Source of the DNA: Geothrix oryzae
GTDB taxonomy: Bacteria > Acidobacteriota > Holophagae > Holophagales > Holophagaceae
DNA length: 64,000 bases
Direction of reading: 5' to 3'
Assembly: GCF_030295385.1 (NCBI RefSeq)
Contig: NZ_AP027079.1
Coordinates: 1,054,001-1,118,000, forward strand
How positions within the stretch are numbered: the first letter of the stretch is position 1; each line of letters begins with the position of its first letter. This document shows, in pieces, positions 33,342 through 55,726 of the stretch. A model generated the notes under the pieces. That model was not told where the DNA came from and did not search any database. It saw only the letters and a program-made list of their open reading frames with translations. The translations under genes and the position numbers were made by a program.

Positions 33342-33698
33342 CTACTTCATATTGAATTTGAACTTGCCCTCATGGCATTCGAGACACTTCACCACGGGGG
33401 GCACATGCTGCCGGTGGCACTCGGTGCAGGCGATCTCACCCTCGTGGGAATCGTGGGGATTGGGCTTGGCATCCTTCGTCAGGGCCTTCATGGCCGGATA
33501 GTCCCCGTGGCAGGCCATGCATGACTCTGAGGCCACGGCCTTCTTGGTGGGCTTCTCCTCCTTGTGGCAGTCGAAGCAGTGGACGCCCGCCTTGGTATGG
33601 AGGGGCGTGAGCTTGTGCGTCTTGACCTCCTGGGCCAGCGTGGCCGAGGCCCAGAGGCATCCGAGGAGGAGGGTGGCGAAGAGGCGGGTGCGCGTCAT
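33342..33698 (-). CDS. periplasmic tetraheme cytochrome c (FccA N-domain-like)
   Basis: 118 aa from the ATG at 33698. Signal peptide about 1-22 (ending SATLAQ). Four CXXCH motifs: CFDCH (41-45), CMACH (60-64), CTECH (91-95), CLECH (105-109). Spacing and surrounding residues (CxxCHGDYPAM, PHDSHEGEIACTECHRQH) match the tetraheme domain of flavocytochrome c3 fumarate reductases and the small tetraheme cytochrome, but no flavin domain follows. It likely carries electrons in the periplasm between a quinol dehydrogenase and terminal reductases or extracellular routes. Convergent with the GT9 gene, 6 bp away. Confidence 0.92.
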   Translation of the reverse strand: MTRTRLFATLLLGCLWASATLAQEVKTHKLTPLHTKAGVHCFDCHKEEKPTKKAVASESCMACHGDYPAMKALTKDAKPNPHDSHEGEIACTECHRQHVPPVVKCLECHEGKFKFNMK

Positions 33699-33816
33699 GG
33701 CAGATCCCTTGGGGTCGCTGGATGCGAGAGCCATTCGAAAAGGGGATCCCATCATCCGAGGGATCGCTTTTCGGGACAGCGGAGATGAAGGTGGATTGGT
33801 CTTTTCAGAGGTCCAA

Positions 33817-33830
33817 GTGATCCAGGTCAC
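33817..33830. promoter_or_regulatory. CRP/FNR-like dyad between cytochrome and PstS-like genes
   Basis: GTGATCCAGGTCAC lies in the 291-bp divergent spacer 33699-33989. It fits AGTGA-N6-TCACC, two bases off the CRP consensus, and resembles the dyads at 12224 and 27094. The spacer also has an imperfect 39-bp inverted repeat at 33736-33774 (CGAAAAG...CTTTTCG) and an AT-rich patch near 33866-33895. No gene is seen in it. Confidence 0.4.
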
Positions 33831-33989
33831 CTTTCAGCGGTGGGGGCAGGCGGCCTGGGGGTGGATAGATATTATGACCTATAGGGCATTTATGTTGCAC
33901 CCTTCTCTTCCATCTGCTCCATCGCAAGTTCAGAGGATCGGAAAGCGTGCAGGCTCCGACCATTCTCAATACCTGATCGAGGGATCCCT

Positions 33990-48574: not shown

Positions 48575-48775
48575 ATGAAGAAGTTGTTTGTTTCGCTCGC
48601 GGTCGCGGCCTTCGCCGTCACGGCCTTCACTCAGGACAAGCCCAAGGAGGCGGCCGCCCCCAAGGCCTGCAAGGAGTGCTGCAAGGCCGATAAGACGACC
48701 TGCAAGGGGGATAAGGCGTGCGAGAAAAAGGCCGACTGCAAGAAGGCCGACTGCCCCAAGGCCAAGAAGGCCTAA
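48575..48775 (+). CDS. tiny exported cysteine/lysine-rich protein
   Basis: 66 aa. Signal peptide MKKLFVSLAVAAFAVTAFTQ; the mature part of about 46 residues holds seven Cys (in KACKECCKAD, TTCKGDKACEK, ADCKKADCPK) and about sixteen Lys, with Ala, Asp and Glu making up most of the rest. TTAGGAG precedes the ATG and a perfect terminator follows, so it is a single-gene unit. The spacing of Cys does not fit CXXCH. A periplasmic metal-binding or thiol-buffer role is a guess; I recognise no family. Confidence 0.7.
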   Translation: MKKLFVSLAVAAFAVTAFTQDKPKEAAAPKACKECCKADKTTCKGDKACEKKADCKKADCPKAKKA

Positions 48776-48948: not shown

Positions 48949-49713
48949 ATGGGCATGGGCCTTCTCTTCGACGCTACGCGCTGCATCGGATGCGGCGCCT
49001 GCAGCTCCGCGTGCAAGGAGCAGAACAAGCTACCGGGCAAGGTAGAGGAGGTGTTGACGGCCTATACCTGGACCACGGTCCAGGAAAAGGAAGGCCTCAA
49101 TGTCCGCCGCATGTGCATGCACTGCGAGGTGCCGACCTGCGCCTCCGTCTGCCCCGTCGCCGCCCTGAAGAAAACGCCCGAGGGGCCGGTGGTCTACGAT
49201 GCCGAGCGCTGCATGGGCTGCCGCTACTGCATGATGGCCTGCCCCTTCGAAATTCCGAAGTACCAGTGGGACCGGCCGGTGCCCGTGGTGGGGAAGTGCA
49301 TCCTGTGCGCGGGGCGCCTGAAGGAGGGCAAACCCACGGCCTGCGCCGAGGCCTGCCCGGCGGAGGCCACCATCTTCGGCAAGAAGGAGGACCTGATCTG
49401 GGAGGCCCGGACGCGCATCCGGCAGAAGCCGGGCGCCTATGTGGACCATATCTACGGGCTCACGGAAGCGGGCGGCACCTCGGTGATGATGATTTCCAGC
49501 GCCCCCTTCGACAAGCTGGGCCTCAAGTCGAACCTGCCCGCCGATCCTCCGGCCATGCGCACCTGGCAGGTGCTCTCCAACATCCCCGATTTCGTGGGCG
49601 TATGGGGCGTCTTCCTCTACGGAGTCCACTGGATCACGGCCCGCCGCGTGGATGTGGCCAAGGCGGAATCCAACGGCAACGGACACAACCACGGTCGGGA
49701 GGACCGGTCATGA
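48949..49713 (+). CDS. HybA/PsrB-type ferredoxin-like subunit with four 4Fe-4S sites
   Basis: 254 aa. Sixteen Cys in four clusters: C12-C15-C18-C22, C56-C59-C64-C68, C88-C91-C94-C98 and C117-C120-C132-C136, the pattern of electron-transfer subunits of molybdopterin oxidoreductases and Hyb-type hydrogenases. Unlike HybA there is no Tat signal peptide, yet a hydrophobic segment near 219-232 (VGVWGVFLYGVHWI) is followed by a His/Asn-rich tail, so the topology is uncertain. AGGAG precedes the ATG. The stop overlaps the NrfD-type gene's ATG. No catalytic subunit is encoded next to it. Confidence 0.9.
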   Translation: MGMGLLFDATRCIGCGACSSACKEQNKLPGKVEEVLTAYTWTTVQEKEGLNVRRMCMHCEVPTCASVCPVAALKKTPEGPVVYDAERCMGCRYCMMACPFEIPKYQWDRPVPVVGKCILCAGRLKEGKPTACAEACPAEATIFGKKEDLIWEARTRIRQKPGAYVDHIYGLTEAGGTSVMMISSAPFDKLGLKSNLPADPPAMRTWQVLSNIPDFVGVWGVFLYGVHWITARRVDVAKAESNGNGHNHGREDRS

Positions 49714-50876
49714 ACACCCTCGCCACGCTCGCCCCCCGTCGGTTCCGTCCCGGTTTCTGGACGGCCGTCTTCGTCGTGCTCTTCCTGGCCTTCTGCGCCG
49801 TCACCGTGATCCGCTTCAGCAAGGGGCTTGGTGCCGTCACGCACCTGAGCGACCAGTTCCCCTGGGGCCTCTGGATCGGCTTCGACCTGCTCTGCGGCGT
49901 GGGCCTCGCCGCCGGCGCCTTCACCCTGACCGCCGTGGTCCACCTCTTCAACCTCAAGCGCTTCGAACCCATCGTGCGGCCGACCATCCTGACGGGCTTC
50001 CTCGGCTACGCCTTCGTGATCGTGGCCCTGCTGCTGGACCTCGGCCAGCCCTGGCGCATCTGGCATGCCATCGTCTATTGGAACCCCCACTCCGTCATGT
50101 TCGAAGTGGCCTGGTGCGTGATGCTCTACACCACCGTGCTGGCCGTGGAGTTCTCCCCGGCGGTCTTCGAGCGATTCGGCTTCCATGCCCCGGCGCGGAT
50201 CATCCACCGGCTCATCACCCCGCTCGTCATCATCGGCGTGATCCTCTCGACCCTGCACCAGTCCTCGCTGGGATCGCTCTACCTCATCGTGCCCAGCAAG
50301 CTCCATCCGCTCTGGTACTCCCCCATGCTGCCCCTCCACTTCTACATCTCCGCCATCGGCGCGGGCATCGGCATGGTGATCCTGGAGTCCTACCTCAGCG
50401 GCCGGGCCTTCCATCGCCACCTGGAGATGGACCTGCTGGAGCCCCTGGCCCGCGGCATGGTCGTGGCCCTGGGCATCTACGGCCTCATGCGCCTGCAGGC
50501 CATTCGCCGCAATCACGCCTTCGGCAGCATCCTGGACTTCGGCTACGAGGGCCAGATGTTCCTGCTCGAGTTCACCCTGGGCGTGATCCTGCCGGTGATC
50601 CTGATGTCCTTCCGTCGTCTGCGCACCAACCCGAACTGGCTGGTGGGCGGGGCTTTCCTGGCGGTGCTGGGCTTCGTCATGAACCGCCTGAATGTCAGCA
50701 TCACGGGCATGGAAGCGGCTTCGGGCACGCGCTACCTGCCCTCGGGCATGGAGATCATCGTCTCGCTGGGCCTGGTGGCCACGGGCATGGCGGTGTTCGC
50801 CTTCGCGGTGCGCAACTTCTCCATCTTCCCCGATGGTCCCGTGACCGATGACCATCGGTCGGAAGAGGGGGCCTGA
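49710..50876 (+). CDS. NrfD/HybB-type membrane quinone-interacting subunit
   Basis: 388 aa with about ten membrane helices (for example FWTAVFVVLFLAFCAVTVIRF, LWIGFDLLCGVGLAAGAFTLTAVVHLF, PTILTGFLGYAFVIVALLLDLGQPWRIWH, ITPLVIIGVILSTLHQSSLGSLYLI). DLGQPWRIWHAIVYWNPHSVMFEV and STLHQSSLGSLY are conserved in the HybB branch of the NrfD/PsrC family, which exchanges electrons between quinone and the ferredoxin-like partner. Coupled to the FeS gene as ATGA and followed 3 bp later by the kinase gene, so it is one operon. Confidence 0.92.
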   Translation: MNTLATLAPRRFRPGFWTAVFVVLFLAFCAVTVIRFSKGLGAVTHLSDQFPWGLWIGFDLLCGVGLAAGAFTLTAVVHLFNLKRFEPIVRPTILTGFLGYAFVIVALLLDLGQPWRIWHAIVYWNPHSVMFEVAWCVMLYTTVLAVEFSPAVFERFGFHAPARIIHRLITPLVIIGVILSTLHQSSLGSLYLIVPSKLHPLWYSPMLPLHFYISAIGAGIGMVILESYLSGRAFHRHLEMDLLEPLARGMVVALGIYGLMRLQAIRRNHAFGSILDFGYEGQMFLLEFTLGVILPVILMSFRRLRTNPNWLVGGAFLAVLGFVMNRLNVSITGMEAASGTRYLPSGMEIIVSLGLVATGMAVFAFAVRNFSIFPDGPVTDDHRSEEGA

Positions 50877-50879
50877 GCC

Positions 50880-52418
50880 ATGCGAACCCGCATCGGCACC
50901 CGTCTGATCCTCGGCGCCGGCCTGTCGACGGCGCTGGTGATCGGCGGCATGGCGGTGGTCATCCTGCGGTCGCATACGGCCCAGCTCCTGGCCGAACGAA
51001 CCCGCAGCGCCGACCAGCTGAGCGAAACGATCAAGAGCGCCACCCACTTCGACATGCTCGAGAACCGCCGGGACAACCTGCACCGGCAGATCCGCTCTGT
51101 GGGCGAGCTCCAGGAGGAGGGCATCCGCAAGGTCCGCGTCTTCAACAAGGAGGGGCGGATCATGTTCTCCTCGGCCAACGAGGAGATCGGCACCAGCCTC
51201 GATATCCGGGGCGAGGCCTGCTACGCCTGCCACGCGGAAGGACGGCCGCTGGAGCGCCTGGAAATCCAGGCCCGCGCCCGGACCTTCCGCGCCCCGGACG
51301 GAACGCGCGTCCTGGGCCTCATCAACCCCATCCCCAACGAACCGACCTGTTCGACGGCGGACTGCCACGCCCACAGCGCCAAGCAGAGCCTGCTGGGCGT
51401 GCTGGATGTGAATGTGTCGCTGGCGGAGGTGGACCGGGAGATCGCCCACAGCCGGACGGTGATCGCCGCTTCGGCCATCCTCGCCATGCTCGTGGGCAGC
51501 TTCATCCTCTGGTGGATGAACCGCCGGCTGGTGGTGGAGCCCGTGGCGGCACTGGTGGCGGGCACGCGACGGGTGGGCGAAGGGGACCTTACGACCACCA
51601 TCCCGGTGAGCGGCCGCCATGAACTGGGCGAGCTGGCCGGGGCCTTCAACACCATGACCCAACGGCTGGCCGAGACCCAGGGGCAGCTGGCGCAGGCCGA
51701 CAAGCTCGCTTCCGTGGGCCGGCTGGCCGCGGGCGTCGCCCATGAGATCAACAACCCGCTGACCGGCGTTCTCAGCTATGCCTCCCTGCTGCGGAAGCGG
51801 ATGGAAGGCGACGCCTCCGCCTGCGAGGATCTCGATGTGATCGTCCGGGAGACGGTGCGCTGCCGGGGGATCATCCGGGGACTCCTGGATTTCGCCCGCC
51901 CCACGGCTCCGGCGCGGAAGCCCATGGACCTCAATGAAGTGGTGCGGCGGTCGGTGTCCGTCGTGATGACGCAGCTGTCGCTGAACCAAGTGGACCTGTC
52001 GCTGGACCTGGCGGCGGAACTGCCCCTGGCCTTCGCCGATGCCAACCAGATCCAGCAGGTGGCCGTGAACCTGCTGCTCAACGCAGGGGATGCCATCGGC
52101 ACCGAGGGCGGGATCATCCGGGCCAGCACGCGGCCGGGGCCCGATGGCTCCATTGAGCTCGTCATCAAGGACAGCGGCCGCGGCATTGCCGCGGAAGACC
52201 TGCCCCGCATCTTCGAGCCCTTCTACACCACCAAGGGCAACCATGGCACGGGGCTGGGGCTCGCGGTCAGCTGGGGCATCGTCGAGGCCCACGGCGGCGC
52301 CCTCGAGGTGCAGAGCGAGCCCGGCCAGGGCACCCAATTCACCCTTCGCATTCCCACGGCAGCCGGATCCAAGGACTCTCCGGACGGCAGCCAGCCCCCC
52401 ATTCCCACCACCACCTAG
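50880..52418 (+). CDS. sensor histidine kinase with c-type haem motifs in the periplasmic domain
   Basis: 512 aa. Membrane helices at about 8-30 and 192-213 bracket a periplasmic sensor of about 160 residues. It contains CYACH (Cys114-His118) in a canonical CXXCH and CSTADCH (Cys157-His163), a CX4CH variant; both could bind haem c covalently. Next come a HAMP region (220-270), the phospho-acceptor His288 in VAHEINNP and a HATPase_c domain (NLLLNAGDAIG, DSGRGI, GTGLGLAVSWGIVEAHGG). The likely signal is redox state or a small ligand at the haem. The likely target is the adjacent response regulator, 9 bp downstream. Confidence 0.93.
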   Translation: MRTRIGTRLILGAGLSTALVIGGMAVVILRSHTAQLLAERTRSADQLSETIKSATHFDMLENRRDNLHRQIRSVGELQEEGIRKVRVFNKEGRIMFSSANEEIGTSLDIRGEACYACHAEGRPLERLEIQARARTFRAPDGTRVLGLINPIPNEPTCSTADCHAHSAKQSLLGVLDVNVSLAEVDREIAHSRTVIAASAILAMLVGSFILWWMNRRLVVEPVAALVAGTRRVGEGDLTTTIPVSGRHELGELAGAFNTMTQRLAETQGQLAQADKLASVGRLAAGVAHEINNPLTGVLSYASLLRKRMEGDASACEDLDVIVRETVRCRGIIRGLLDFARPTAPARKPMDLNEVVRRSVSVVMTQLSLNQVDLSLDLAAELPLAFADANQIQQVAVNLLLNAGDAIGTEGGIIRASTRPGPDGSIELVIKDSGRGIAAEDLPRIFEPFYTTKGNHGTGLGLAVSWGIVEAHGGALEVQSEPGQGTQFTLRIPTAAGSKDSPDGSQPPIPTTT

Positions 52419-52427
52419 GAGGTCCCC

Positions 52428-53555
52428 ATGACCGCCCTTTTGATCATCATCATGTTCGTTGCCTTCGTGGGCATCGACTTCCTGGTGCGTACGAGCCTCC
52501 GCCGCATGCACGAGAAACGGGAGCGCCAGGCCCGCGAAGCGGTCCTGAACACCTCGATCCGCCTGGACTTCACCCACGAGGCCAAGAGCCTCAAGCGCGT
52601 GGAGGTGCCCAATCCCAAGGCCCGGATCATCGCCGTGGACGACGAGGCGGTGGTGCTCGACTCCTTCCGCCGCATCCTGGTCCTGGAGGGCTACAGCGTC
52701 GACACCGTGGAGCATGGGCCGGAGGCCCTGGGCCTGATCCAGCGGAACGACTACGACTTCCTCTTCACCGACCTCAAGATGCCGGACATGGACGGCGTGG
52801 ATGTGGTGAAGGCGGCGAAGCACCTGCGCCCCGATGTGGATGTGGTCGTCATCACCGGCTACGGCAGCATCGAGACCGCGGTCCAGACGCTCCAGCAGGG
52901 CGCCTGCGAGTATGTGCAGAAGCCCTTCACCGCCGACGAACTGGCGGAGTTCGCCAAGAAGCTGCTCATCAAGCGCAACGCGCGCATCGAAGCCCAGCGC
53001 CGTCCCAATGTGCGGGTGGTCGCGCCCGAAATGGCCGAGGTGGTGTCCGCCAGCGAATTCTGCGTGCCTGGCGGCGCCTTCCTGTCGACAGGTCATGCGT
53101 GGGTGCGGATCGAGCCTGAAGGCCAGATCCGCGTGGGCATCGATGATTTCGTGCGCAAGGCCCTGGGTGCCGTGAAGACGGTGGTGCTCCCCGAGCGGGG
53201 CAAGGTCGTGAAGCAGGGCGATCCCCTGTTCACGCTGAAAGGGGCCACGGGCGAAGTCCATGTGGCCGCGCCCCTCAGCGGCCGCATTGAGCATGACAAC
53301 GCGGGCCTGCTCACGGATCCGGGCGAGCTCATGCACAGCCCCTACGACCGGGGCTGGGTCTGCCTGATGACGCCCTCCGACCTGGCCGGGGAACTCCCCG
53401 CCCTGAAGATCGGCCAGCCCGTCATCGACTGGTACCAGGATGAGATCACCCGCCTGCGGACCTCCGACAAGCCCCAGGCCGTCGGCACGGACGCACTGGA
53501 CTGGAAGGCCTTCGAGCAGCAGTTCATGGGCGCGGACGCCCGCGTCCAGGCCTAG
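52428..53555 (+). CDS. membrane-anchored response regulator with C-terminal GcvH-like domain
   Basis: 375 aa. A membrane helix at residues 2-20 (TALLIIIMFVAFVGIDFLV) is followed by a linker and a receiver domain (Asp71, Asp72, phospho-acceptor Asp115 in FTDLKMPD, Thr143, Lys165 in QKPF). Instead of a DNA-binding domain, residues about 210-320 resemble glycine cleavage H protein: HAWVRIEPEGQIRVGIDDFVRKALG, LPERGKVVKQGDPLFTLK, VAAPLSGRIEHDN, and SPYDRGWVCLM. The lipoyl-lysine position seems to be occupied by Thr274 or nearby, so it is probably not lipoylated. TAGGAGG precedes the ATG. Output is unknown, perhaps direct control of the membrane complex. Confidence 0.9.
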   Translation: MTALLIIIMFVAFVGIDFLVRTSLRRMHEKRERQAREAVLNTSIRLDFTHEAKSLKRVEVPNPKARIIAVDDEAVVLDSFRRILVLEGYSVDTVEHGPEALGLIQRNDYDFLFTDLKMPDMDGVDVVKAAKHLRPDVDVVVITGYGSIETAVQTLQQGACEYVQKPFTADELAEFAKKLLIKRNARIEAQRRPNVRVVAPEMAEVVSASEFCVPGGAFLSTGHAWVRIEPEGQIRVGIDDFVRKALGAVKTVVLPERGKVVKQGDPLFTLKGATGEVHVAAPLSGRIEHDNAGLLTDPGELMHSPYDRGWVCLMTPSDLAGELPALKIGQPVIDWYQDEITRLRTSDKPQAVGTDALDWKAFEQQFMGADARVQA

Positions 53556-53571
53556 CTGAACGGAAACCGAC

Positions 53572-53605
53572 GAGGGCCCCGGAAGCTTCGGCTTCCGGGG
53601 CCCTC
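53572..53605 (+). terminator. terminator of the redox-complex/two-component operon
   Basis: A perfect 15-bp stem (53572-53586 with 53591-53605) with a TTCG tetraloop, 17 bp after the response-regulator stop. It defines the end of the 48949-53555 operon. Confidence 0.9.
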
Positions 53606-53692
53606 ATCCTCTGCGGCCTTCGGGCCGATCGCTAAACGCGGGTGATCGCGGGGCGTAGGCCTCGTCTGATTGACCATTCTGCGGAGAGGAAG

Positions 53693-54805
53693 ATGGGCGT
53701 GGCGTTTCGTTCGATGGTCCTTGCGGCGCTGGGGAGCCTTCCGATCCCGCTTCCAGCCGGCCCTGTCGAGGAGCCTCTACCCCTCGTGCGCCTTCAGCAC
53801 CTCGTTCCCGAAGCGGAACGCACCCAGGTCCTGGTGCTCGGGACCTTCCACCTCCGGGAGGTCCAGGCCCGGTTCCAGCCCGCCATGGTGGAGTCGCTCC
53901 TCCAGCGCCTGGAGGCGTTCAGGCCTGATGTGGTGGCCGTGGAGGCGCTCCCCGGGCCCCACATCCACGAGCTGGAGCTGCGATCCAAAGCCACCCCCAT
54001 CCACGAGGTGCTGCTCGACCAGTTCGCCGAGGCGTCTCTGGCGCTGGGCCACGAGGCCCAGGCGCTTCTCCGCTTGGACATGGTGCAGGCCTCCCGGGCC
54101 CTCGTCGCGCAGAAGGGCGTGCCCTCGGAGCCTGCGGCCCTCGCGACTCTGACCCTCCAGCATCTGGCCGCCTACGAATGGCCCAGCGCGCTGCTCGCCT
54201 GGTCGCGGATCCCCGAGGGAAGCCCTGCGCGGGACCGGATACCCGCAGCCCTGGCGGCCAAGCTGGATGCCTACCTCGCCCGCGTCAACGAGATCCAGGC
54301 GGTGGCGATCCCCCTGGCCCGGAAGCTCGGCCACGCGCGGATCGCCTGCGTGGACGAGTTCGAGGCCCCGGAACCGTTGGAACAGGTCATGGCGGCCCTC
54401 GCCGTCTCCCGCAAGGAGGCGCCCCTGCTGGCCGGGACTGCGAAGGCGCCGGTCCACCGGGAGAGCCAGGAGCGCCGGGATGCGGCCGTGGCGGCGGGCG
54501 ACCTGCTGCCCTACCTCCGCCACCTGAACTCGCCGGCCTATGCGGTGGCGGATGTGGACGCCCAGTGGGCCGTGTACCTGCGGACGCACCTGAAGGACGG
54601 CTCGGACCGGGGGCGTCTCGCCCTGTGGGAGAACCGGAACCTGAAGATCGCCGGGCGGATCCGGGCCCTCTCGGCCCTGTACCCGGGGAAGCGGATCGTG
54701 GTGATCTACGGCGCGGCCCACAAGCCGTTCCTGGATGCCTTCCTGGGCCTCTGCAGCGACCTGCGGATCGTCCAACCCGAGGCAGTGCTGAAGGAGGCCC
54801 GCTGA
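53693..54805 (+). CDS. DUF5694 (TraB/TIKI-like) exported protein
   Basis: 370 aa from the ATG at 53693 (GAGAGGAAG ahead). A hydrophobic start (FRSMVLAALGSLPIPLPAG) suggests export. VLVLGTFHLREVQARFQPAMVESLLQRLEAFRPDVVAVEALPGP matches the start of the DUF5694 family (LGTxHF...I..L..xxPxxIxVE), and RIVVIYGAAHKPFLDAFL its end (VVxGxGHxxxL), both also seen in TraB/PrgY/TIKI-type proteins. A hydrolase role is suspected for the superfamily; substrate unknown. Confidence 0.8.
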   Translation: MGVAFRSMVLAALGSLPIPLPAGPVEEPLPLVRLQHLVPEAERTQVLVLGTFHLREVQARFQPAMVESLLQRLEAFRPDVVAVEALPGPHIHELELRSKATPIHEVLLDQFAEASLALGHEAQALLRLDMVQASRALVAQKGVPSEPAALATLTLQHLAAYEWPSALLAWSRIPEGSPARDRIPAALAAKLDAYLARVNEIQAVAIPLARKLGHARIACVDEFEAPEPLEQVMAALAVSRKEAPLLAGTAKAPVHRESQERRDAAVAAGDLLPYLRHLNSPAYAVADVDAQWAVYLRTHLKDGSDRGRLALWENRNLKIAGRIRALSALYPGKRIVVIYGAAHKPFLDAFLGLCSDLRIVQPEAVLKEAR

Positions 54806-54829: not shown

Positions 54830-55726
54830 TCAGCCCTTGGCGTTGGCCGCCATGCCTTCGCCGGCGTGATAGCTGGACCGCACCAGGGGGGCGGATTCCA
54901 CGCGCTGGAAGCCCATTTCCAGACCCTTCTGGCGGAACAGGTCGAACTCGGCCGGTTCCACGAAGCGGTGCAGGGGCAGGTGCAGGTCGGAGGGGGGCAG
55001 ATACTGGCCGATGGTGGCGATGTCCACGCGGGAGGCACGCCAGTCGGCCATGAGGGCGAGCACCTGCTCCGGCGTCTCCCCCAGACCCACCATGATGCCG
55101 CTCTTCACCCGCATGGCCGGAGCATGGGCGTCCCGCCAGTCCGCCGTGCGGCGCAAGACCTCCAGGCTCTGGAGGTAGTCAGCATCCGGCCGCACCCGGC
55201 GGTAGAGATGGGGCACGGTCTCCACATTGTGGTTGAGCACCTCGGGCCGGGCCTCCAGCACGGTGAGGAGGTCGGCCTCGCGGCCCCGGAAGTCGGGGAT
55301 GAGCACCTCCACGCCGCAATGGGGCGAGAGGGTGCGGATCCAGCGGATGGTTTCGGCGAAGTGGGCGGCGCCGCCGTCGGGCAGGTCGTCCCGGTTCACG
55401 GAGGTGACCACGGCGAACTTCAGGCCCAGGCGCGCCACGGCCTCGGCCACGCGCTGGGGTTCACCCGGGTCCAGCTCTCCGGGGCGGCCCTTGCCCACAT
55501 TGCAGAAACCGCAATGGCGGGTGCAGATGTCGCCCATGAGCATGAAGGTGGCCGTGCGGTGGATGCCCCAGCACTCGTGCAGGTTCGGGCAGCGGGCCTC
55601 TTCGCAGACGGTCACCAGCCGTTGCTCCCGGATCAGGCCCTCGACCTCCGCCACCACCTCCGGGGCCGGGACGCGGATCTTGAGCCAGTCGGGGCGGGGG
55701 CCAGGGAGGACGGGGGGGCGGGCCAT
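54830..55726 (-). CDS. lipA: lipoyl synthase
   Basis: Radical SAM enzyme of 298 aa that inserts two sulfurs into octanoyl groups on lipoyl domains. Cys41, Cys46 and Cys52 (VCEEARCPNLHECW) bind the auxiliary cluster, and CTRHCGFCNV (Cys68, Cys72, Cys75) the SAM cluster. VRSSYHAGE near the C-terminus contains the conserved RSSYxA motif, whose Ser binds the auxiliary cluster. lipB is not in the window. It is 3'-to-3' with the DUF5694 gene and divergent from scpA. Confidence 0.97.
   Translation of the reverse strand: MARPPVLPGPRPDWLKIRVPAPEVVAEVEGLIREQRLVTVCEEARCPNLHECWGIHRTATFMLMGDICTRHCGFCNVGKGRPGELDPGEPQRVAEAVARLGLKFAVVTSVNRDDLPDGGAAHFAETIRWIRTLSPHCGVEVLIPDFRGREADLLTVLEARPEVLNHNVETVPHLYRRVRPDADYLQSLEVLRRTADWRDAHAPAMRVKSGIMVGLGETPEQVLALMADWRASRVDIATIGQYLPPSDLHLPLHRFVEPAEFDLFRQKGLEMGFQRVESAPLVRSSYHAGEGMAANAKG

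Follow-up and report, generated by a model that had tools for sequence, protein, structure and literature searches.

A membrane-tethered H-protein-fold response regulator encoded with a haem-motif kinase and an FeS-NrfD quinone module in Geothrix

What does a membrane-bound response regulator act on when it carries no DNA-binding domain and is encoded, together with its kinase, beside the subunits of a quinone-linked iron-sulfur (FeS) module? The question is raised by an operon of the Acidobacteriota bacterium Geothrix oryzae, which we analyzed within a stretch of 64,000 nucleotides (assembly GCF_030295385.1, contig NZ_AP027079.1, forward-strand positions 1,054,001 to 1,118,000; hereafter the window, whose own numbering is used). 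Four genes of the + strand make up the operon: an HmcB/HybA-like FeS protein of 254 residues (48949-49713; sequence and profile searches), an NrfD/HybB/HmcC-like integral membrane quinone subunit of 388 residues (49710-50876; profile searches and an NrfD tree), a histidine kinase of 512 residues (50880-52418) and a response regulator of 375 residues (52428-53555). The first-pass annotation had described these genes as tightly spaced, which the coordinates confirmed: the junctions are, in order, a 4-base ATGA overlap, 3 bp and 9 bp. Gene fusion and gene neighbourhood suggest that phosphorylation controls the docking of the regulator's output domain, an H-protein fold, on the FeS-NrfD module, a reading that we favor tentatively, at somewhat less than an even chance.

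The regulator had been annotated as membrane-tethered and devoid of a DNA-binding domain. Both points held, but the annotation had overlooked an output domain with the H-protein fold. By Pfam and an AlphaFold2 model (mean pLDDT 82), the protein consists of an N-terminal membrane helix, a receiver domain, an H-protein (GcvH) fold and a C-terminal helix; Pfam listed no DNA-binding domain, and neither an AAA+ sigma54-interaction domain nor a helix-turn-helix (HTH) was present. The predicted membrane helix (52431-52499, + strand) is followed by positive charges, corresponds to a helix of residues 2-45 in the model and recurs as a hydrophobic segment in relatives. The receiver (residues 64-192; 52617-53003, + strand), located by Pfam and structure alignment, has the DDE residues, the phospho-Asp within FTDLK, and the T and K all in place, and its best NCBIfam models are NosR-family, AtoC and NtrC. 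The C-terminal domain (residues 211-345; 53058-53462, + strand) is GCV_H (PF01597, E 6.7e-16). Foldseek matched it to the E. coli apo-H structure 3a7l with a TM-score of 0.94 (by target length) and a root-mean-square deviation of 1.1 Å, and VIA-align gave a Z of 19.5, with deviations of 1.1 Å from 3a7l (128 residues) and 1.2 Å from 1htp (131 residues). The presence of this domain ruled out a regulator without any output domain. The C-terminal part of the protein is 99% identical to its nearest named record, from Geothrix sp. BP11.

The domain lacks the lipoyl-lysine motif of its fold family. The genuine GcvH proteins aligned alongside had the lipoyl Lys in 7/7 cases, within the motif E-S/A-V-K. 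Another residue occupied this column in 25 of 29 receiver (REC)-fused domains, including that of the window, where it is Thr, and in 49 of 52 separate H-fold domains; the replacing residue varies freely. Where Lys was retained, it followed QG, QN or SG instead of the canonical motif, with the exception of L190, which has no NrfD nearby. From these alignments, we read the regulator output as an apo-H-fold domain in which the conserved lipoyl site is absent. The window genome contains two GCV_H matches in total, the second being a genuine gcvH located far away.

The distribution of the domain suggests where it may act. A profile of the H-fold domain (A2), run on eight genomes, gave family members at least 193 bits and all other GcvH-like matches at most 77. 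At E<=1e-24, it matched 39 of 296 genomes sampled around a Bacteroidales locus and 80 of 296 sampled around locus L089; the latter sample includes Geothrix genomes and therefore appears to be Acidobacteriota, and its scores reach down to 88 bits, so that short frames near the threshold (126-153 residues) may be ordinary GcvH. The 40 stretches that we read had been selected, mostly from the higher scores, without knowledge of their neighbours, and L088 was added to them; some are cut by contig ends, and the phyla covered are those reached by these two samples and by a scan with Geothrix patterns. Two kinds of cluster emerged. In kind B, to which the window belongs, receiver and H-fold share one polypeptide; genes for FeS, NrfD and haem kinase were present in 11/11 loci, with NtrC in none. 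A second REC-H-fold gene without a membrane helix occurred in nine of these loci, and multihaem cytochromes c are encoded in several (the only one tested, from L172, matched Pfam Cytochrom_CIII). In kind A, the H-fold proteins are separate, one to three per locus, and in 38 of 52 the domain is preceded by a hydrophobic segment. The 30 kind A loci carried FeS in 22 (a count that includes L190, a distant and probably unrelated match), NrfD in 20, the haem kinase in 18 and a sigma54 NtrC in 25; FeS, NrfD and haem kinase occurred together in 17. Because the H-fold stands separately beside FeS-NrfD in one kind and is fused to a receiver in the other, it would belong to the redox machine, and the regulator would act there. 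The genome of 3.27 Mb has five NrfD genes; by our own arithmetic, a gene picked at random would have one of them within 7.5 kb in approximately 2% of cases, and the link between H-fold and NrfD is therefore far beyond chance.

The sister clusters of kind A combine a separate H-fold with a sigma54 DNA-binding regulator, and transcription control is therefore the likely output there, as judged from gene content. Two other features of these clusters were observed. An archaemetzincin gene, usually right after NtrC, is a conserved partner in 21 of the 25 NtrC-bearing loci (for example, L175:852-1394, L177:14553, L204:5900-6481 and L088:13691-14236; Peptidase_M54 in the two tested). The first gene of the L088 cluster (L088:5965-7698) encodes a PBP_like_2 domain fused via an apparent membrane helix to an apo-H-fold domain.

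Partner exchange provided a second line of evidence. In three of 35 Geothrix genomes (G004, G020 and G029), the operon NrfD is only 46-47% identical to that of the window, while the kinase and the regulator are still approximately 80% identical; the FeS protein, also read in G004 and G029, is likewise exchanged (48-49%). No second copy of NrfD was found in the three genomes at E<=1e-40. In a 49-row tree, the NrfD proteins of G004 and G029 (rows L057 and L055) grouped with an orphan copy from the window genome, with support of 100/100. Thus, within Geothrix, the FeS-NrfD pair at this site has been swapped for a different one, beside an unchanged signalling pair. The orphan FeS-NrfD pair itself (NrfD at G000:C1:286739-287809; L211:6743-8598) has neither an H-fold gene nor a match to the operon kinase beside it. 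The membrane-tethered REC-H-fold receivers form one clade (97/97) apart from the NtrC receivers, in a tree that has many weak forks and contains L073 twice; the outgroup-labelled row L080 within the clade is, by name and place, that locus's own regulator. In the NrfD tree, for which long-branch warnings were printed, kind B requires at least four label changes on starred branches. From these trees, the regulator lineage looks single, and its FeS-NrfD partner looks to have changed repeatedly, always to another FeS-NrfD pair.

The operon is also stable in gene order. A scan for the regulator with two patterns specific to Geothrix-like proteins yielded 54 loci, 14 of which extend less than 4 kb upstream of the regulator and were set aside. 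The order FeS-NrfD-kinase-regulator on one strand was kept in 39 of the remaining 40, and the fortieth, L088, is a cluster of the sister kind. The 39 loci include two from Eisenbacteria and one from a metagenome-assembled genome titled Deltaproteobacteria; many are metagenome-assembled and share species with the genus genomes, so the counts are not independent. Among 37 genomes of the genus, 35 had the regulator, and the same 35 had the NrfD match. The other two, G011 (72% complete) and G017 (93%), had neither, nor a kinase match in a kinase search that covered seven of the 37 genomes. Cultured Geothrix carry the operon, including G. fermentans DSM 14018 (L041). The tight module proposed in the first-pass annotation is supported, and it is conserved; scattering of the four genes was not seen for the window kind, and the order varied in a few distant loci (L191 and L196).

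We propose the following putative mechanism. The sCache kinase with its haem motifs would read the periplasmic redox state or a ligand and would then phosphorylate the membrane-tethered receiver, a phosphotransfer that we infer. Phosphorylation may alter the docking of the fused apo-H-fold domain on the cytoplasmic side of the HmcB/HmcC-like FeS-NrfD module, and the altered docking would adjust either electron flow through the quinone module or the assembly of the module. Gene fusion and partner exchange give a better footing to the earlier suggestion that the pair may act post-translationally on the redox module. The first-pass annotation had offered, as another option, that the complex itself might feed electrons to the sensor. 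A broader claim is that the apo-H-fold constitutes a new output class of two-component systems, a phosphorylation-gated subunit of a quinone/FeS module through which a haem sensor would throttle electron flow without transcription, the same redox-H-fold core driving a sigma54 regulator in the sister kind. We regard this broader claim as rather unlikely.

Several observations weigh against phosphorylation-controlled docking. NrfD was missing from the stretch read in 10 of the 30 kind A loci. Positive charges come after the C-terminal tail of the FeS protein, a pattern shared with relatives exported by the twin-arginine translocation (Tat) pathway, so this subunit may not face the cytoplasm; were the FeS protein exported, only the NrfD loops would be reachable by the regulator. 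In the genomes with exchanged partners, the change in the H-fold relative to the receiver had a mean residual of -2.7 with a standard deviation of about 5-6, that is, no clear excess and no signal of co-evolution. Finally, a lipoyl synthase gene (lipA; NCBIfam PRK05481 and TIGR00510) lies convergent with the operon at 54830-55726 on the - strand, separated from it by one unassigned gene (53642-54805). Convergent lipA was found in 39 of the 54 loci of the regulator scan, with a gap of only tens of bases in most relatives; the 15 loci without a match are L070, whose contig ends inside the regulator, and L076-L089. Such an adjacency would be more in keeping with a lipoylated regulator than with the reading favored here. 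The presence of lipA beside the operon across Geothrix therefore led us to raise slightly our low estimate for a lipoyl carrier and to lower, also slightly, those for controlled docking and for a new output class.

Among the alternatives, the best survivor reverses the direction of information flow. The redox module may be the sensor input, with FeS-NrfD informing the kinase of the state of the quinone (or of electrons); the H-fold would merely scaffold the regulator and thereby couple phosphate flow to the complex, and the effector would lie elsewhere. The input side is indeed the more constant one, as 17 of the 30 kind A loci keep FeS, NrfD and haem kinase, and 25 bear a sigma54 NtrC as output. 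However, the H-fold is the only output domain in the window operon, and no NtrC accompanies the 11 wider kind B loci. We consider this alternative unlikely.

A less probable alternative, which we doubt, is an ordinary two-component pair that has an unlinked DNA-binding target or serves as a phosphate sink, with the H-fold used for oligomerisation only and the proximity to FeS-NrfD reflecting co-transcription. Response regulators without a DNA-binding domain are common, and the sister kind does use the DNA-binding NtrC. The first-pass annotation had held that a separate DNA-binding partner controlling unrelated promoters would speak against a tight module; no NtrC-type regulator, the only type looked for, occurs at the 11 wider REC-GcvH loci, whereas the sister clusters do carry a sigma54 regulator. 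Functional coupling is nevertheless argued for by the separate, receiver-less H-fold proteins beside FeS-NrfD and by the replacement of one FeS-NrfD pair with another. That the H-fold is a working lipoyl carrier, which would shuttle groups or electrons from the FeS module to an enzyme or back, is very improbable: the fold match at 1.1-1.2 Å, the convergent lipA just 3′ of the regulator, a Lys three residues before the lipoyl site (FTLK) that is common in the genus and a Lys in the aligned column of 4/29 REC-fused domains favor it, but the column lacks Lys in the great majority of fused and separate domains and never in genuine GcvH, the Lys of FTLK gives way to Glu or Arg in some relatives, and lipA was found neither in any of the 40 wider H-fold stretches nor at L076-L089.

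The kinase, which would feed the proposed docking switch, comprises a transmembrane segment, a periplasmic domain with the sCache fold, a second transmembrane segment and the domains HAMP, HisKA and HATPase_c (Pfam, model and Foldseek). Its best NCBIfam models are AtoS and ZraS. A HisKA/HATPase kinase is thus paired with a receiver partner, and the phospho-acceptor His and Asp are both in place. The periplasmic domain was modelled with a mean pLDDT of 79, falling to approximately 50-65 around the haem motifs, and the best Foldseek matches of the sensor domain include those of WalK, CitA and DctB. Periplasmic haem motifs had been annotated, and two are present by motif pattern count, although they are not both CXXCH: one is a CXXCH haem c motif (CYACH, residues 114-118; 51219-51233, + strand), and the other is a CX4CH, a probable haem c motif (CSTADCH, residues 157-163; 51348-51368, + strand). 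Both motifs were found in 35 of 38 kinases of the wider set, in which L201 has two CXXCH, L210 is without the first motif and L085 was scanned only from residue 1 to 420 of a misplaced frame. Pattern counting in the 54-locus set, under filters that differed slightly, yielded 47 kinase-like frames of more than 450 residues and 46 frames with the motif pair. We infer that haem may be covalently attached at these motifs. At E<=0.1, PF21563 matched weakly in 19/19 kinase members, the window match lying below the family cut-off, and PF11845 (sCache_heme) was not among the 11 families listed for these members. A sequence search of the Protein Data Bank (PDB) with the sensor gave weak matches only, including 3b42 at E 0.069, which we take to be GSU0935. 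Some relatives of the kinase (L082:7443-9392 and L172:9303-11153 among them) have in the ATPase domain an insertion of approximately 130 residues with several CPxC/CxxC motifs, zinc-ribbon-like in appearance, that is absent from the window kinase.

The proposed target of the regulator is made of familiar parts. Exactly 16 Cys, the number annotated, are present in the FeS protein; they fall into four groups, and the C-terminal hydrophobic segment of the protein is weak. The second gene belongs to the NrfD family (PF03916, E 1.7e-28), and its description as a HybB-type quinone subunit is upheld; HmcC was its first NCBIfam model (E 5.4e-102, below the model cut-off), followed by the HybB-type PRK10881. 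For the pair, HybA and HybB ranked behind the best models, HmcB and HmcC, and the matches to the latter two both fell under the curated cut-offs (420 and 550). No Tat signal was found in the FeS protein and no Tat-bearing partner gene beside it. Across the loci, a multihaem cytochrome gene was near 12 of 17 FeS proteins with a Tat signal and 5 of 24 without one (Fisher p 0.003, a value that is too small because the rows are related by descent); the 1800-base rule used for this count missed the cytochromes of L205 and L207. As annotated, the four-gene operon contains no catalytic reductase or hydrogenase gene. On the - strand, 15 kb from the operon, a reading frame for a small cytochrome with four CXXCH (33345-33833) may encode a periplasmic electron partner.

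The operon lies in a complete genome of 3.27 Mb. Its end is marked by a strong hairpin with a 15-bp stem and a UUCG loop (53572-53605, + strand; folding and terminator consensus scan), which reaches -46 kcal/mol over a 76-nt stretch, with a z of -4.7. The strong terminator claimed earlier is thus very stable as a hairpin, but no T tract follows it on the + strand, and the consensus scan reported it on the - strand only. The consensus scan found no sigma70-like promoter, and sigma54 promoter motifs in the window were at chance level (25 found versus 27.3 expected). In the gap between groEL and the operon, a small exported Cys/Lys-rich protein of 66 residues with seven Cys is encoded (48575-48775, + strand), followed by a hairpin seen by eye; its gene was found in 7 of the 54 loci of the regulator scan.

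No paper describing this gene combination was found in the literature searched, most subscription journals lying outside the search. Every part comes from known families; what looks new is their combination, together with the output domain. If controlled docking is correct, the operon would provide a kinase-regulator pair with respiratory machinery as its effector and thus fast feedback on electron flow, a role for the H-protein fold without its lipoate site, and an unrecognised output domain of response regulators. It would also explain NrfD-adjacent genes that, as we expect, now carry the label 'glycine cleavage system protein H'. The module is compact, occurs in Geothrix strains that are in culture and lends itself to direct testing.

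Comparison with known systems places each half of the operon. The FeS-NrfD pair resembles the HmcB-like and HmcC-like subunits of the Hmc complex of Desulfovibrio (HmcA-F with rrf1/rrf2), and regulator genes also adjoin hmc according to one study (PMC10924467). However, the window operon is without HmcA, HmcD, HmcE and HmcF, and no HmcA-type multihaem cytochrome accompanies it, the sole window frame of more than 80 residues with at least two CXXCH being the one 15 kb away. For the FeS-quinol oxidase-cytochrome c module, that study reports no conserved flanking genes, and it describes a signal-less FeS protein of this type as thought to hitchhike with a Tat-borne hydrogenase (PMC10924467); no such hydrogenase partner is encoded in the operon. 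Compared with both Hmc and these modules, a kinase and a REC-H-fold regulator are built in only here, and the FeS protein has no Tat signal or Tat partner. The kinase shares the sCache fold and a covalent-haem motif with sCache_heme proteins and the Geobacter haem c sensors (3b42 and GSU0582); members of sCache_heme fused to signalling modules bind haem c covalently and have properties resembling those of NO sensors, as reported in a further study (PMC12889525). The window kinase differs from the Geobacter sensors in having two motifs (CXXCH and CX4CH), which the predicted strands, of low confidence there, apparently place elsewhere. Its models AtoS and ZraS, like the NosR-family, AtoC and NtrC models of the receiver, recall two-component systems of the NtrC/AtoC type, whose regulators have an AAA+ and HTH output; here, a membrane-tethered H-fold domain takes that place. 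This domain shares its fold and Pfam family with the glycine-cleavage H-protein GcvH but differs from it in lacking the lipoyl-lysine motif, in being joined to a membrane helix and a receiver within one protein, and in bearing an extra C-terminal helix.

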